A DNA stretch of 64,000 bases, from assembly GCA_003635185.1 (NCBI GenBank), contig PYJA01000015.1:8249-72248 (forward strand), given 5' to 3'. Below are positions 12,228 to 19,513 of this stretch, in pieces. How positions within the stretch are numbered: position 1 is the first letter of the stretch; each line of letters opens with the position of its first letter. The translations under genes and the position numbers were made by a program. Under the pieces are notes generated by a model. It saw nothing but the letters and a program-made list of their open reading frames with translations. It ran no database searches and had not been told where the DNA came from. This DNA is from Candidatus Poribacteria bacterium (lineage in GTDB: Bacteria; Poribacteria; WGA-4E; WGA-3G).

Positions 12228-12989
12228 TTAATAATCGATCACTTCTAAATCTTGCATCCGCTCAAGCGCAAAGACACGATTATCTTGACGCAATTCACAG
12301 AATCCCTCTACACACAACGTCTGACCAGAATCCCGACTGTTCGGTATATTAAATAGCCGATCTGGCACAACTGTGCGCGTCATCCACGTCTTAGCGTTCG
12401 GCTTCTTATAGTCAAACCGAATCTTTTGATTATTCTTAATAGCAGATTGGATCTCCTTAACTTGTGGCGCGAACTCTGATTGAGACGGATTCAGGGTAAA
12501 ACTATCAAAAATATCACCTGGGCCGTGCATACTCTCATGACACGGTTTGCAAATCAATTCGAGATTATCCAACTCGTTCGTTCCGTATTCACACAAAGGA
12601 ATCTCGTGGACCAGATAAACGTCTGCTTCCTCTCCGCAGCTTGAACAGATTGAACCGTTCTGCTGAATGAGGTGGCGTTTGCGCTCATCCCAATCCGGCG
12701 GCCAACTCGGCAAGAAATCATAAATTGAGGTTAAAGTGTTTTTCAGTTTTGTAAGTTCGGAGGATAAACTTCTCACCTCTTCCTGCGATGCGGCCTCTCC
12801 ATTTGCAACTTCAGTCTGTGCAAAGAGAGACAAAATGAGTTGTGAGTTCTGTCTACGCAGAACAGCCTCAATTTCATCTTTCCGCATTTGCAGCTTAATC
12901 AGACAAGAAGAATGGAGATGGTTACCGTTAGATAGATCGATATCATATTCATAGTCGGCATATTGCTTACACACGGTACAGTAAGGCAT
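12228..12989 (-). CDS. HNH nuclease-WYL domain fusion with N-terminal Cys/His zinc motif
   Basis: 253 residues with an unusual order of parts. C4, C7, H26 and C29 may form a small zinc site. A helical coiled stretch (about 33-95) follows. An HNH domain has C115 and C118, H128, N141, C147, C150, H151 and H155 (CSSCGEE, VHEIPL, LICKPCHESMHG). A C-terminal WYL-type domain (about 176-253) has IRFDYKK, TVVPDRLF, LCVEGFCELRQDNRVFALER and LEVIDY. WYL domains sense ligands or nucleic acid in many defence regulators, so this may be a nuclease under WYL control. It is 15 bases after the AAA-nuclease gene and probably cotranscribed with it. GAGG precedes the ATG. Confidence 0.72.
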   Translation of the reverse strand: MPYCTVCKQYADYEYDIDLSNGNHLHSSCLIKLQMRKDEIEAVLRRQNSQLILSLFAQTEVANGEAASQEEVRSLSSELTKLKNTLTSIYDFLPSWPPDWDERKRHLIQQNGSICSSCGEEADVYLVHEIPLCEYGTNELDNLELICKPCHESMHGPGDIFDSFTLNPSQSEFAPQVKEIQSAIKNNQKIRFDYKKPNAKTWMTRTVVPDRLFNIPNSRDSGQTLCVEGFCELRQDNRVFALERMQDLEVIDY

Positions 12990-13004: not shown

Positions 13005-14624
13005 TTAATTGTCAAAACTTTCTGCTGAGGGACGTTCCTGCATAACAGGAATAACATAACTCCGAATCTTAAAATCTTCTATTTCTTCTGTCTCAGCACG
13101 GGGTTCTGGATTGGTGCGATGGTCAAAGACAACATAGTAACCCTCTATAGCGCTTTCTAATTTGAGATATGATGCAAGTTGCCGTTTACCTTTCTGATAA
13201 CTCACTTCGCCTCTCCACACTTTTGTTTCAACTATGTATTTTTGTTGATTATGCGTGATGAGTAGGTCCATCCTACCGCGTCCGGTTTGCACCTCAATGT
13301 GCATAAATCCACCTACTAATCGGACAAACTGCTCAAGATACGCAAGCAGCAGATGCCGCCCTACAGATTCTTGCGGTGTATCAGGCACTTGGAGTATTTT
13401 AAACCCCACCCGTGCAATGAAATCTCGAAAGTTATCAAGCAGTGCTCCCATTTCTATATGTCCAGTCGTAGAAAGGTAATCGAGAAAACCTTCGCGGGTG
13501 TCTTCAGGTAGATATTCCTGCTCTAATCCGTTCACTGCTGGTTTGAAGGTTTGTAAGATACAATAAAAATAAATTGGGTTCGCAATTTCACACATGCCAT
13601 CTGTGCCACTTTTTATCACGCCATAAGTTGCAAGTTCACTGATAAGATCATCGCGAAGATTAAAAGCCATCCCATCATCAGATGCAGTGATTCTCATCAA
13701 GATACTTGCAAAACGTGGATTTCTGCGGATATTTGTTGTCAAATGGTCAATGTTCGTATTGCGTTCATGAAGCAGCTGGAAGTGTGCCTGTGAGAAGTGA
13801 TCCATCGTAATTGATTCTGTCTTTGGAATGTCAAGCTCATCGGTCAGTATTTGTGCGATTCTATTGACGAGAAAAGGCTGCCCTGCAGTCTGCTTATGGA
13901 TAGATTCAATTACCTCTGGCAAAAAGGATTGTCCGACTTCTTCCGTATACTGCTGTAAGAGTTCATGCACTTGTTCACATGTGAAGTTTGAGAGGTGGAA
14001 TTCATCTTGAATGTTGAAAGGTGATATAGAGCGGTCATAATTGAGTTGGGCAATACTTTTAACACCGACAATTCCAACGCTATGCGGACATTTTGGAGTT
14101 GAATTTGAAACATAGATACGACGAAGTGAGCGGAGAAAACCTACTAATGCTTCTTGCGGGATACCGTCAAATTCGTCTATGATTAGGATAACCCGATGCA
14201 TATCATATTCAGCTTTTAGTAAAGCTTCAAACTTCTCAAAGAATCTGCGCATTGAGACTTGATCGGTAATATTCGTATTTTCTAAAAATTGACGAAGTGT
14301 TTCTGAAAGTGTGTGTCCTTTTTTTTCGAAAACATTTACTATTTCATCACATAAATCTTGATAGAAATAGTTATAAAATGTTGACGAAGTGGATTCTTCA
14401 AATTCCTCAAAATTCAATGGTATAGGTAAGTAGACCGATTCATTATAATTGAAAATGTCAAGGGCGCGTTGAAAGAATGTTGTTTTACCCGTCTGGCGCG
14501 GTGCAAAGATAACGATATAACGCCCATCTTTGATGCGCGCAATAAAATCGTCGAGCTCGGCAGCACGACTAACAACATAATTCTTTTCTGGATGAACAGG
14601 GCCTTGTGTGCCAAAACGTCTCAT
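13005..14624 (-). CDS. AAA-like ATPase with C-terminal PD-(D/E)XK nuclease domain
   Basis: 539 residues. N-terminal P-loop ATPase of the STAND-like AAA type: Walker A FAPRQTGKTT (about 40-49) and Walker B VILIIDEFDGIP (D150, E151). A winged-helix-like part follows (about 260-350). The C-terminal part (about 440-510) fits a PD-(D/E)XK nuclease, with D453 in GRMDLLI and E466/K468 in YIVETKVW, then a Tyr-rich strand (EGYYVVFDHR). AAGGA precedes the ATG. It lies between an HNH gene (126 bases upstream) and the HNH-WYL gene (15 bases downstream), all on the minus strand. Such fusions are frequent in accessory DNA and suggest nucleic-acid restriction; the target is unknown. Confidence 0.8.
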   Translation of the reverse strand: MRRFGTQGPVHPEKNYVVSRAAELDDFIARIKDGRYIVIFAPRQTGKTTFFQRALDIFNYNESVYLPIPLNFEEFEESTSSTFYNYFYQDLCDEIVNVFEKKGHTLSETLRQFLENTNITDQVSMRRFFEKFEALLKAEYDMHRVILIIDEFDGIPQEALVGFLRSLRRIYVSNSTPKCPHSVGIVGVKSIAQLNYDRSISPFNIQDEFHLSNFTCEQVHELLQQYTEEVGQSFLPEVIESIHKQTAGQPFLVNRIAQILTDELDIPKTESITMDHFSQAHFQLLHERNTNIDHLTTNIRRNPRFASILMRITASDDGMAFNLRDDLISELATYGVIKSGTDGMCEIANPIYFYCILQTFKPAVNGLEQEYLPEDTREGFLDYLSTTGHIEMGALLDNFRDFIARVGFKILQVPDTPQESVGRHLLLAYLEQFVRLVGGFMHIEVQTGRGRMDLLITHNQQKYIVETKVWRGEVSYQKGKRQLASYLKLESAIEGYYVVFDHRTNPEPRAETEEIEDFKIRSYVIPVMQERPSAESFDN

Positions 14625-14750: not shown

Positions 14751-15560
14751 TCATTGTTTTCTTAATTCTTTCCAAATGTCGCCGTATTTGTCCATAAATT
14801 CTTGATAATTCGGCAAATTCGTATTGTGTCCAGGCTGTTCTGCATGGCAACCAACACAGAGTGCTTTCAAGTCTTCTGGACGGTTATGTGAGGTGCCCCT
14901 CAAATGGTGAGCATGGAGAAATTTACGTTCAGTTTTTAAATTTAAGAATATACCACATTCTTCGCATTTCCATCCTGCCCTTTTGCGACACTGTAGTGAG
15001 ATCAAATTCCAATCAGGTGGATAATTTGAGACAGTACCTGTTGTTGGAGTAGTCTTGGGCCCCAAAAGACCATCTCTTGGAGGAGGCTCATAACTACCAT
15101 CAATGGCATTAAACCAGTCATCTAGTGGAAAAGCGTCGGGAGTATAAACATCTTTCAGGTTTAGTTCCTGCCATAAACAGTTTTTGCAAATATCCAGTCT
15201 GTATGTATCAGGGTTATCGCGCCGAAGGTTATCCGCAAAATTGAGGAGAAACTCTCCATCTGTTCGCCTTGTCACCACGTACCGTTTATACTTCCCAGCA
15301 TCTCGCATATCTTTGAGGGTTTGACAATCTACTACGTGATATTTTGGCAGACGACCTCTCACATCCCGAATATAAAGAACTACCTTTCGTCCCTGATATT
15401 CCAGTGTTCCGTTCGGAGCGACTTTAACATCATCGGGACCGACCGTTATACCTGGTCCTATTATTAATTTTTCTTTTTCCGTGTCAATGAATGGCTGGAA
15501 TGGCACTCCCAATCGTTTGAGCAGATCATCTAAATTCGGAAAATCTTTGGGTAACTTCAA
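14751..15560 (-). CDS. HNH endonuclease coupled to zorB (ZorE-like position)
   Basis: 269 residues. A C-terminal HNH domain has C199/C202 (KCEECG), H218/H219 (HAHHLRG), N226, and C235, C238 and H239 (LCVGCHAEQPGH). The N-terminal part is unknown; it has conserved-looking YHVVDCQTL, RYVVTRRTDGEF and an extra CxxC at 125-128 (ICKNC). The start is TTG at 15560: GGAGG lies 7 bases upstream, an in-frame stop lies just before it, and the TTG overlaps the zorB stop codon, so translation is probably coupled. In type II Zorya defence systems the third gene, zorE, encodes an HNH nuclease, so this is the likely effector. Whether it is homologous to ZorE outside the HNH motif could not be tested. Confidence 0.78.
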   Translation of the reverse strand: MKLPKDFPNLDDLLKRLGVPFQPFIDTEKEKLIIGPGITVGPDDVKVAPNGTLEYQGRKVVLYIRDVRGRLPKYHVVDCQTLKDMRDAGKYKRYVVTRRTDGEFLLNFADNLRRDNPDTYRLDICKNCLWQELNLKDVYTPDAFPLDDWFNAIDGSYEPPPRDGLLGPKTTPTTGTVSNYPPDWNLISLQCRKRAGWKCEECGIFLNLKTERKFLHAHHLRGTSHNRPEDLKALCVGCHAEQPGHNTNLPNYQEFMDKYGDIWKELRKQ

Positions 15561-16336
15561 TTCACTACCTCCGATTTATTAAATCGTTTCATAAGCTCTT
15601 CAATTTCTTTGATAAGTTTCTCGGATTTCGTGACAACCCTAAACTCAACCCGACGAGATTCCGCTCTGTTTTCTTGTCCAGATGAACTTAAAATGAGTTG
15701 GCTTGAAGATAAGCCATTGGCTGTCAAATTTTTCTTAATCCACTCTTTATTCCAAGTTATTTTAGGATGTTTGATTCCAAGCACATATCGCAGCACGTTT
15801 CGTGCCCTATTCTGAGATAATTCCATATTCTTAAAATAAGCTTCATCAAAAGTGACTTCACGATTCCACTCACCAGAAGTGTGACCTTCAATACGGATTT
15901 CGGCAATTCCATCTTTATATTCAGGCTTTGTTAAAATAGCAACATACCGCGGGAAGAAATCGCGTAAGACGCTTTTAAAGGCATTTGGAACGGTTGCATC
16001 CCCTTGGATAAAAGGTTTCTTAAAACGTATAGACAAAGTTTCCATATCCAAATATCCGCGCCACGTAGTCCTAAACTGGGTCTTTTTGGTGATATTTCCT
16101 TCGAATTCTGATTGCAACTCTTTGTACAAAGCTGCCTGTAAATTTTTGTAAGCATCAAGCAGTTCCTCAACTTCGTTTTTATAGACAATAATTTCATTTG
16201 CTTTGAGACGAACATTCAACATGTAACTAATAGAAATAAAGAGAAAAATCACCATCAATCCCGCCATCACATCAGATATTGATACCCAATGCTCTTCTGT
16301 TTCCTGTTCTTTGGTCCCCAATAAATTTTCTAACAC
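15557..16336 (-). CDS. zorB: ZorB-like OmpA-domain stator protein
   Basis: 259 residues. One N-terminal membrane helix carries a conserved Asp (D22) in VSISDVMAGLMVIFLFISI, the pattern of ZorB/MotB proton-path segments. A linker and an OmpA-like peptidoglycan-binding domain follow (about 145-245: AEIRIEGHTSGEW, ELSQNRARNVLRYVL, LILSSSGQENRAESRRVEFR). In Zorya systems ZorB assembles with ZorA as an ion-driven inner-membrane motor anchored to the cell wall. The gene begins with GTG 3 bases after the zorA stop and overlaps the HNH gene. A general Tol/Mot protein is less likely because of the SDVMAGLMVIFLF segment and the nuclease neighbour. Confidence 0.82.
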   Translation of the reverse strand: MLENLLGTKEQETEEHWVSISDVMAGLMVIFLFISISYMLNVRLKANEIIVYKNEVEELLDAYKNLQAALYKELQSEFEGNITKKTQFRTTWRGYLDMETLSIRFKKPFIQGDATVPNAFKSVLRDFFPRYVAILTKPEYKDGIAEIRIEGHTSGEWNREVTFDEAYFKNMELSQNRARNVLRYVLGIKHPKITWNKEWIKKNLTANGLSSSQLILSSSGQENRAESRRVEFRVVTKSEKLIKEIEELMKRFNKSEVVN

Positions 16337-16339
16337 CTG

Positions 16340-17842
16340 TTAAATCCTCTTGCTTTGTGCTTGCTGGCTTGCATTTACAAATTGTGTTAGTGCTGTTAGT
16401 GCTTGGGCGTAATGTCCGGCCAATTCCTGATAATTATCAACAAAACCGTTAGAAAGACTTTCAATGTTACCTGCCAGCGTTTGTAAAGAGTTTGTTAATT
16501 CTGCACGTAGAGATTCATTCAACGTATTAACTTCTTTACGAAGGTCCCCATGTAAGATGTTGACATGATTTTCTATATCTTCCTTGTTCCTTTCCACAAG
16601 GTTTTTTAGTTCCAAAGCAATCTTACTAACAGTATCTTCAAGTTCATCTGCATGCTCGTTTAGTTTCCTACGTTGTGTTTCCATACTTACATGGGAACTG
16701 TCAATTGTTTGTTCAACAGCAGCTGAAAGTCTTGTAGTGAGATTGTTTAAACGGTTTTCAATGAGTGGAAATGCCTCATGTGCTTGATCCCGCAAATTGC
16801 TGAACGCTTCCAATTGATCATTTAAGGTATGTAGAAGTGGTTCCATATCTTCAGCACAAACAACAATGCTGGAACTCTTGTCAGCGATTTCACTTGATGC
16901 TTCGGCTATCTGTTCCATAGATACGCGAGATTGTTCAATGCTTTCAGCTGCAACCCGAAATTCATCAGCAAGTTTATCCATCTGTTGACGGTATTGTTCC
17001 TGCCATGCTACTGTTCTCCCAACAGCCTCGTTTAACTGTTTAAAGTTTTCACCAAACTGCACGGTGAGTTTAGCGTTAAAATCCTCAATAACAGTCTTGA
17101 GTGCTTCAATTAATTCGTCAGTGGCAAGCTTCGCTACGCTTTCAGCAACGTTTTCTGAAAAAGCTTGAAATTCACTTTTCAACTCATCGTGTTTAGTAGT
17201 AATTTCTGTTTTCAAAGACCGCAATTCTGTAAGGAGATTGCCTTCACTATCGGACAAGGATGTCTCAATCGTGCTTAATCGCGACTCAGAAACAACCTTC
17301 AATAAGTTCTGCAGTTGGGTAAAAATAGTACGTTCTGTCTCGCCAGTTAATGCAGTTTTAACATCACGGATTCCACTCAAAACTGTCCCGATGTCATCTT
17401 TATCTTTAATGACTTTGGTCAAATCATCCAATTTTGAAGAGAGGTTGCTTTCTCCAGAGGTTTCAACGGATTCCAACGCTTCTTTTAACCCATCAACGAA
17501 TTTATTGATTGCCTCTTGACTCGGATCCCGAGCCCTAATCATTTGGTAGACGAAAGCGTACCCCTTTAGAATGATAGCCTCTAAGATTCCAACCAATGAG
17601 GTTAAGAAAGCAAGCTTGAGTCCATTTAATAACCCAGGAATGCTGGATTCAAGATTCTCAATCTCAAAAACCTGAAGTCCAATGAAGATACCAATAAATG
17701 TCCCAAAAACCCCGATTATAGTTAAAATTGAAGCCGCAGTGTTAGTATGTGTATACCAACCTTTTTTCCACCACAAAACACCGAATACCAGTAATCCAAT
17801 AACAAACTGAAAGCAAACATATCCAATTGTAAAAGAATCCAT
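16340..17842 (-). CDS. zorA: ZorA-like MotA/ExbB motor protein with long coiled-coil tail
   Basis: 500 residues. Membrane segments are IGYVCFQFVIGLLVFGVLWW, ASILTIIGVFGTFIGIFIGL and LKLAFLTSLVGILEAIIL. The GT-GI-GL and GLKLAFLTSLVG patterns are typical of ZorA/MotA/TolQ channels. After about residue 110 the rest is a long Glu/Lys/Leu/Ser-rich coiled coil, matching the long intracellular tail known for ZorA and absent from ordinary ExbB/TolQ. A start ATG follows AGGAGG. It is the first gene of the cluster zorA-zorB-HNH. In known Zorya systems the tail transmits phage sensing to cytoplasmic effectors. Confidence 0.82.
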   Translation of the reverse strand: MDSFTIGYVCFQFVIGLLVFGVLWWKKGWYTHTNTAASILTIIGVFGTFIGIFIGLQVFEIENLESSIPGLLNGLKLAFLTSLVGILEAIILKGYAFVYQMIRARDPSQEAINKFVDGLKEALESVETSGESNLSSKLDDLTKVIKDKDDIGTVLSGIRDVKTALTGETERTIFTQLQNLLKVVSESRLSTIETSLSDSEGNLLTELRSLKTEITTKHDELKSEFQAFSENVAESVAKLATDELIEALKTVIEDFNAKLTVQFGENFKQLNEAVGRTVAWQEQYRQQMDKLADEFRVAAESIEQSRVSMEQIAEASSEIADKSSSIVVCAEDMEPLLHTLNDQLEAFSNLRDQAHEAFPLIENRLNNLTTRLSAAVEQTIDSSHVSMETQRRKLNEHADELEDTVSKIALELKNLVERNKEDIENHVNILHGDLRKEVNTLNESLRAELTNSLQTLAGNIESLSNGFVDNYQELAGHYAQALTALTQFVNASQQAQSKRI

Positions 17843-17919: not shown

Positions 17920-19374
17920 TCAATCCAACGGAAACAACGGCCGCCGAACATTCTCATACCTAAAATGCAGCGGATTCACCGCAGTCAATCCCGGTGTATC
18001 CACCTCAATAATCTTCCCAGCAATTGGTTCGTAGGCAGCGCGATATGCAATGGCAGCTTTCACAACAATCATCCGCATCGCTTCTGGATTGATGCCGAGA
18101 CTCAGTAGTTGCTGCAGGCTAAAAGGTGTTTGACGGTTGCTTGTCAGTACCACTAACGAGTCTCCTACAGCAACAACAGCTGTTAACCCTTGATTGTGGT
18201 ATTTTTGTCCGCCGTGGCGCGGTTCTGTCTCAATAAAATGTCCATCATGAATTAATCGGACTCTACCTCGAATTGGAACAGGATTCCCGTGTTGATTATC
18301 AGTTTTTCCACCGACCTGTAAAGACACTTGATTGCCAACGCCAATCTGAGTACAGGTCTGCACACATTCAGGATCACATAGCACCACGACAAATTCTGAT
18401 GCTTTTTGTCGTAGCAACTCCGCCAGAATGAAAGTGCTGTCACCGGGTGAACCGCCGCCAATGTTATCCCCCATTTCAACAAGAATTATAGGGTATTTGT
18501 TGCTTGAAATTGCTTGCTGTACAGCGTCTGCTGCGTCAGGTAGATTCAGTGTTAATTGGTCGTGGACATTCCACAACATATCTGATAACCGAGTAGCTTC
18601 TGTTTTTGCAAGTTGTGGGTTATCGTCCGTTACAACAACGAAGGATGGACCTGCCTCATGGACATCTGCGTAAGGATACCCCGCTGCTACATTAGCCACA
18701 AGAACGTTAGAATCGGTTTCAAGTTGCCGAGCTGCGTTTAGAATAGAGGACATTGGTTCCGTACTTGTATTTTGATATAGGATATTGAGTAGCATCGGTG
18801 GTTTGGCAAGTACCTGTGTAGGTGTTGCCTCTTCTCTGAGAATACGCATTATCAATTTTGCTGCCTGTAACCCGCGTTGCCGCTGATCAATGTGTGGGTT
18901 TGTTTTGTAGATTACAAACGCTGTTGAATTATCAACCATCTGCTGAGAGACATTTGCATGATGGTCAAGTGTGACGACAATTGGCAAAGATTCACCGAAG
19001 GTATATCGTAGTCTTTTTAGCACTTCTCCATCACCATCAGGATAACTTTCTGCCACCATCGCGCCGTGCAGGGCAAGCAGGAATCCATCCAGTTTCTGCA
19101 TTGCTTTGAGTTGTTGGACAAGCATATCGGTGAGTTTATCAAAAGCATCATTAGTTACGGGACCAGCAGGTGTGGCAGTCGCCATCACGGTAGGATGTGC
19201 CGTGTAGTTATAGTCTTCTGCACCTTGAATAAACCCGCCCATTTCATGATGTGTCCCTTTCCATACCGAAAACAGATCATCTCCAATAGTGTGAGAAAAC
19301 GCCTCAAAATCGGTAGGGGTTTTACTGAACGTATTAGATTCGTGCATGATCCCACCAATAGCAATCGTAGCCAT
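17920..19374 (-). CDS. M81 (MlrC-like) family metallopeptidase
   Basis: About 484 residues, the usual length of the MlrC/DUF1485 family. The N-terminal ATIAIGGIMHESNTFS is typical, followed by LALHGAMVAES, VVTLDHHANVS, VIYKTNPHIDQ with a metal-site His, and VEMGDNIGGGSPGDSTFIL. MlrC cleaves linearised microcystin; most relatives have unknown substrates, so a broad amidohydrolase or peptidase role is all that can be claimed. Two ATG codons are adjacent (19377, 19374); the second is chosen because AGGAG is then 6 bases away. It is on the minus strand just upstream of the zorA promoter region but is probably unrelated to defence. Confidence 0.85.
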   Translation of the reverse strand: MATIAIGGIMHESNTFSKTPTDFEAFSHTIGDDLFSVWKGTHHEMGGFIQGAEDYNYTAHPTVMATATPAGPVTNDAFDKLTDMLVQQLKAMQKLDGFLLALHGAMVAESYPDGDGEVLKRLRYTFGESLPIVVTLDHHANVSQQMVDNSTAFVIYKTNPHIDQRQRGLQAAKLIMRILREEATPTQVLAKPPMLLNILYQNTSTEPMSSILNAARQLETDSNVLVANVAAGYPYADVHEAGPSFVVVTDDNPQLAKTEATRLSDMLWNVHDQLTLNLPDAADAVQQAISSNKYPIILVEMGDNIGGGSPGDSTFILAELLRQKASEFVVVLCDPECVQTCTQIGVGNQVSLQVGGKTDNQHGNPVPIRGRVRLIHDGHFIETEPRHGGQKYHNQGLTAVVAVGDSLVVLTSNRQTPFSLQQLLSLGINPEAMRMIVVKAAIAYRAAYEPIAGKIIEVDTPGLTAVNPLHFRYENVRRPLFPLD

Positions 19375-19513
19375 CATGTTCTCCTATAAATGTCGTTGTG
19401 TTCTGAAATTATTATGGATATTCTATAATGCCAACTCTGAAGCAATTTAGGGTGTGTCCATATTTTGCAAAAGTTTGGGCTAAGGTGCGTTGTCTGAGAC
19501 GTTTCCCATTTTG

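Follow-up and report, generated by a model that had tools for sequence, protein, structure and literature searches.

A minus-strand gene in the window (the whole stretch of 64,000 nt that was analysed) joins an HNH-type zinc fold to a genuine WYL domain in one conserved polypeptide, here called the HNH-WYL protein. Its best explanation, to which we give about an even chance of being correct, is a non-catalytic, WYL-based nucleic-acid-binding protein that acts as an accessory or regulator of the ATPase-nuclease encoded beside it. This accessory role is favoured over a sensor-controlled nuclease because relatives of the protein have lost key cutting residues of the HNH domain. The features of the region are given in Table 1.

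Table 1. Features of the HNH-WYL gene and its surroundings, in window coordinates.
Feature	Position	Strand	Evidence
HNH-WYL gene; 253-aa protein with zinc knuckle, degenerate HNH and WYL	12228..12989	-	ORF and translation; 26 further full-length copies; dN/dS 0.13-0.18
N-terminal C2HC zinc knuckle, residues 4-29 (C4, C7, H26, C29)	12903..12980	-	Invariant in 27/27
HNH-type treble clef, residues ~96-160, catalytic set incomplete	12510..12704	-	Pfam HNH E 5e-4; matches to HNHs of solved structure; residue counts
V127-H128; V occupies the metal-ligand place in the [D/H]-H pair	12606..12611	-	Pairwise alignments to active HNHs; column counts
WYL domain, residues 177-250	12240..12461	-	Pfam E 2e-11; Foldseek to PafBC/BrxR/DriD/CapW; column counts
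AAA ATPase (AAA_35) fused to PD-(D/E)XK nuclease, 15 nt upstream of the HNH-WYL gene	13005..14624	-	Pfam AAA_35 E 2e-19, PDDEXK_9 E 5e-4
ZorE of type II Zorya, not ancestral to the pair	14751..15560	-	PADLOC ZorE2 E 4e-50; missing at the locus in sister genomes
ZorB2	15557..16336	-	PADLOC ZorB2 E 9e-80
ZorA2	16340..17842	-	PADLOC ZorA2 E 6e-70
M81 metallopeptidase gene, which forms a conserved edge of the hot spot	17920..19377	-	Pfam

An earlier note on this DNA had described a 253-residue protein at 12228-12989 with an N-terminal Cys/His motif, an HNH motif and a WYL-like C-terminus, and the reading frame was borne out, running from 12989 to 12228 in 253 codons on the minus strand; on the plus strand the same stretch is interrupted by many stop codons. 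The Cys/His motif is a knuckle of the pattern CxxC...HxxC, and its four residues are the same in all 27 copies now known. Comparison with proteins of solved structure matched the middle of the sequence to the HNH domains of a maturase, IscB and McrA, and the C-terminus to the WYL domains of thermophilic Pif1 helicases. The Pfam WYL profile scored 44 bits over residues 177-250 (E 2.2e-11; curated cut-off 21.8), and the HNH profile 20.6 bits over residues 115-155, slightly under its cut-off of 21.4 (E 5e-4). The structure model, built from the 27 sequences, has its confident region mostly in the WYL domain and is of low confidence in the N-terminal half; it is poor over residues 1-67, where the knuckle is defined by residue conservation only.

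A search for other fusions of this kind recovered 26 further copies, so that full-length HNH-WYL genes are present in 27 of the 85 genomes of the phylum, the window genome included. All belong to the window's own family, in two genera, and their hosts are named Candidatus Poribacteria in the genome collection; the lineages known from this group live as symbionts of sponges. The orthologues are 61-96% identical to the window copy over the full length. A scan of the genome collection found the architecture only in Poribacteria, with patterns drawn from the WYL half that would miss distant fusions, and the plasmid, phage and viral collections held no full-length relative, their matches being HNH-only or WYL-only. 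The dN/dS ratio is approximately 0.13-0.18 for the gene as a whole and 0.07-0.12 for the WYL region, and the HNH region is also under purifying selection; since these values are low, the gene is kept by purifying selection. A pseudogene is ruled out by the low dN/dS and the full-length ORFs in 27 genomes, and a chance architecture by the same ratios and the identity of the full-length orthologues.

Active HNH domains have an Asn, a [D/H]-H pair that provides a metal ligand and the general base, and in most cases one more His (D839/H840/N863 in Cas9; H102/H103/H127/H131 in colicin E9). Alignment to HNH domains of solved structure puts H128 in the second place of the pair and V127 in the first, a position that is V in 11 copies, L in 11 and I in five, as against H or D in active HNHs. 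At the pair site, VHHI or LDHI is seen in other HNH proteins of the phylum, and HH or DH in solved HNHs. N142 is retained in 22 of the 27 copies and lost in five, position 151 is H in seven and Y in 20, and position 155, the last His, is H in three, Y in 22 and F in two. Reading the pair one position later puts D/E in place of the general-base His, and under either alignment the complete set [D/H]H...N...H occurs in 0/27 copies. The zinc cysteines C115, C118, C147 and C150 (a CxxC...CxxC frame) and H128 are invariant in every copy. To judge from these columns, the zinc frame has been kept and the catalytic site has not, as expected of a fold that has been put to use in binding. The HNH motif of the earlier note thus stands as a zinc treble clef but is incomplete as a catalytic motif, residue 127 being V. 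Among four orthologues, only L010 passes the Pfam HNH cut-off (25.5 bits), with L008, L012 and L028 at 14-17 bits.

The same note had proposed a nuclease under WYL control, in which a ligand bound by the WYL domain switches cutting on. The homology of the domain to HNH nucleases by Pfam and by solved structures, the invariance of H128 and the purifying selection on the HNH region are all in keeping with this idea, and Makarova et al. 2014 (PMC4012209) had already named WYL-HNH endonuclease fusions. The window copy itself has N142, H151 and H155 besides H128, and because these remain it may have weak residual cleavage activity. Nevertheless, the loss of catalytic HNH residues across the homologues makes such a nuclease improbable: the residue before H128 is V, L or I in all 27 copies, the last His is gone from 24, the other C-terminal His from 20 and the Asn from five, and shifting the alignment by one position costs the general base instead.

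The WYL-like C-terminus was confirmed. Residues 168-251 are modelled as an Sm-like beta-barrel (block pLDDT 63-91), and a fold search with Foldseek returned WYL proteins at ranks 1-29 (PafBC, BrxR, DriD and CapW), not another fold; the WYL profile is above its curated cut-off in 4/4 scanned orthologues. R205, R211, R234, R238, R244 and C231 are invariant in 27/27 copies and match the published groove of four basic residues and a cysteine (PMC4012209). The closest WYL sequences among chains of solved structure are those of the thermophilic Pif1 helicases (8bns and 8bnv, E 3e-7), with which the domain has the motif GFC..R.D.RVF and the basic residues in common, although in Pif1 the C-terminal WYL domain is carried on a helicase (PMC9964779) and here on an HNH fold. 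The WYL domains of Pif1, DriD and PafBC bind ssDNA (PMC9964779, PMC11804915), and by analogy that of the HNH-WYL protein may bind ssDNA or a nucleotide. PafBC, DriD, BrxR and CapW share the WYL fold but are helix-turn-helix regulators, and the Pfam scan gave no helix-turn-helix profile match in the HNH-WYL protein. That the nearest folds are those of transcription regulators leaves room for a regulator of the adjacent defence genes, comparable to BrxR, CapW or PafBC, in which the zinc modules, which could bind DNA, read a promoter and the WYL domain senses a signal. Such a role is unlikely, given the missing helix-turn-helix, the location of the gene as the last of its pair, downstream of the would-be target, and flanking genes that differ between genomes.

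The other member of the pair is the AAA-PD-(D/E)XK gene, and 39-40 of 40 copies keep its Walker and D-ExK residues. It, or its remnant, adjoins the HNH-WYL gene at 22 of the 27 loci and is immediately upstream in all of these except G046; where the partner is intact and upstream, the two genes are on the same strand with a spacing of 1-17 nt. G046 instead has its nearest intact partner about 100 nt downstream; the tandem order at this locus (L039) is HNH-WYL, AAA-PD-(D/E)XK, a 44 aa HNH-WYL remnant and a second AAA-PD-(D/E)XK. Five loci have no partner, some others retain only the remnant, and G045, the nearest relative, has its partner gene broken into two ORFs. The partner is also found at the same site without an HNH-WYL gene in G030, G036 and other genomes. 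The family is multi-copy, with 11 matches in the window genome, of which only the one in Table 1 adjoins an HNH-WYL gene, and up to 18 in others. Many Poribacteria genomes carry 10-18 copies of this AAA_35-PD-(D/E)XK family, with paralogues about 65-70% identical.

In a tree of the family, the linked copies form two supported clades, one per genus, and a single joint clade was not rejected (p-AU 0.50). This result, together with the M81 gene that both genera carry upstream in the same orientation, is most simply read as one ancestral pairing. Separate pairings with two partner lineages were also weighed, but in view of the same test a single event is the simpler account. A single origin of the pairing at one hot spot would also suit a stand-alone nucleic-acid maintenance or repair protein that has nothing in common with the ATPase-nuclease except location, as would the five loci without a partner and the many copies of the partner family. 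However, the short spacing has been preserved while the proteins of the pair diverged to 61-67% identity between the genera, and the HNH-WYL remnant in G046 sits between two partner copies; we therefore see little likelihood in a stand-alone protein, and regard the AAA-PD-(D/E)XK protein as the probable functional partner.

In the window, a complete-looking type II Zorya system (ZorA2-ZorB2-ZorE) sits between the M81 gene and the AAA-PD-(D/E)XK gene. The three genes lie together at 14751-17842 with strong PADLOC matches, and NCBIfam matches the same Zorya families at scores under its equivalog cut-offs; ZorE is a nickase effector (PMC11890865). The M81 gene is found upstream of the pair on the same strand in several relatives, and in G035, G041 and G044 it directly abuts the AAA-PD-(D/E)XK gene, with Zorya absent. 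Because of this arrangement, the Zorya genes are best seen as a recent insertion in a hot spot, outside the AAA-PD-(D/E)XK/HNH-WYL unit. The HNH-WYL gene was also considered as a Zorya component, and this was ruled out by the sister genomes that keep the pair without Zorya at the locus.

Different genes flank the HNH-WYL gene in different genomes. At the same site in the other genus are genes for a type IIG restriction enzyme and for DarT or a fused DarT-DarG. One such fusion, of DarT to a DarG-like macrodomain, is found downstream of the HNH-WYL gene at L054:3192-4469 (with the locus oriented so that HNH-WYL is on the plus strand), and similar genes occur in L041, L047 and L050; in L047, L050 and L054, HNH-WYL and the fusion are separated by a shorter related ORF (209-223 aa). 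Zorya II-like genes also occur outside the window's genus, at L042:15921-18949, where they precede the pair by about 4.5 kb on its upstream side; the ZorB match is in two pieces and the ZorA match weak. Since Zorya, type IIG restriction and DarT-DarG genes share this site, the pair sits among known anti-phage genes, which agrees with the earlier remark that WYL proteins are tied to defence loci.

The accessory role draws on these data: the WYL groove and zinc residues are invariant while the HNH residues are incomplete in every copy, and the gene is linked on the same strand to an AAA-PD-(D/E)XK gene with conserved catalytic residues and defence neighbours. Counting against it are the multi-copy nature of the partner, its absence from five loci, reduction to a remnant at some and splitting in G045, its persistence at the site without an HNH-WYL gene, the four residues (H128, N142, H151 and H155) retained by the window copy, and the low confidence of the model over the N-terminal half. 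In an accessory of this kind, the ligand of the WYL domain would be ssDNA or a nucleotide that infection or damage gives rise to, the zinc knuckle and the dead HNH would serve to bind DNA or to hold the protein together, and the complex would recruit or gate the neighbouring ATPase-nuclease. More tentatively, and well short of an even chance, the AAA-PD-(D/E)XK and pseudo-HNH-WYL genes could make up an undescribed two-gene defence system, with the dead HNH and WYL acting as an ssDNA sensor that gates a separate, ATPase-driven nuclease.

With WYL-HNH fusions on record since 2014, this architecture is of a known kind, and what makes it a variant is its zinc knuckle, incomplete catalytic site and nuclease partner. 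The likeness to the earlier fusions lies in a WYL domain joined to an HNH-type domain, whereas the N-terminal C2HC knuckle and the incomplete catalytic set are differences from those fusions as they were described. The treble clef P-DW..R....C..C...H..P...N..C..C(H) is common to the HNH domains of ZorE, IscB, McrA-type enzymes and group II intron maturases, but here the metal-ligand residue is absent in all copies and the C-terminal His is lost in most. Annotating such proteins from motifs alone as WYL-controlled nucleases would then be wrong. If the accessory role is correct, an HNH nuclease fold has been reused as a non-cutting module beside a WYL sensor, and attention is drawn to a family of ATPase-nucleases in Poribacteria for which a WYL partner is optional.
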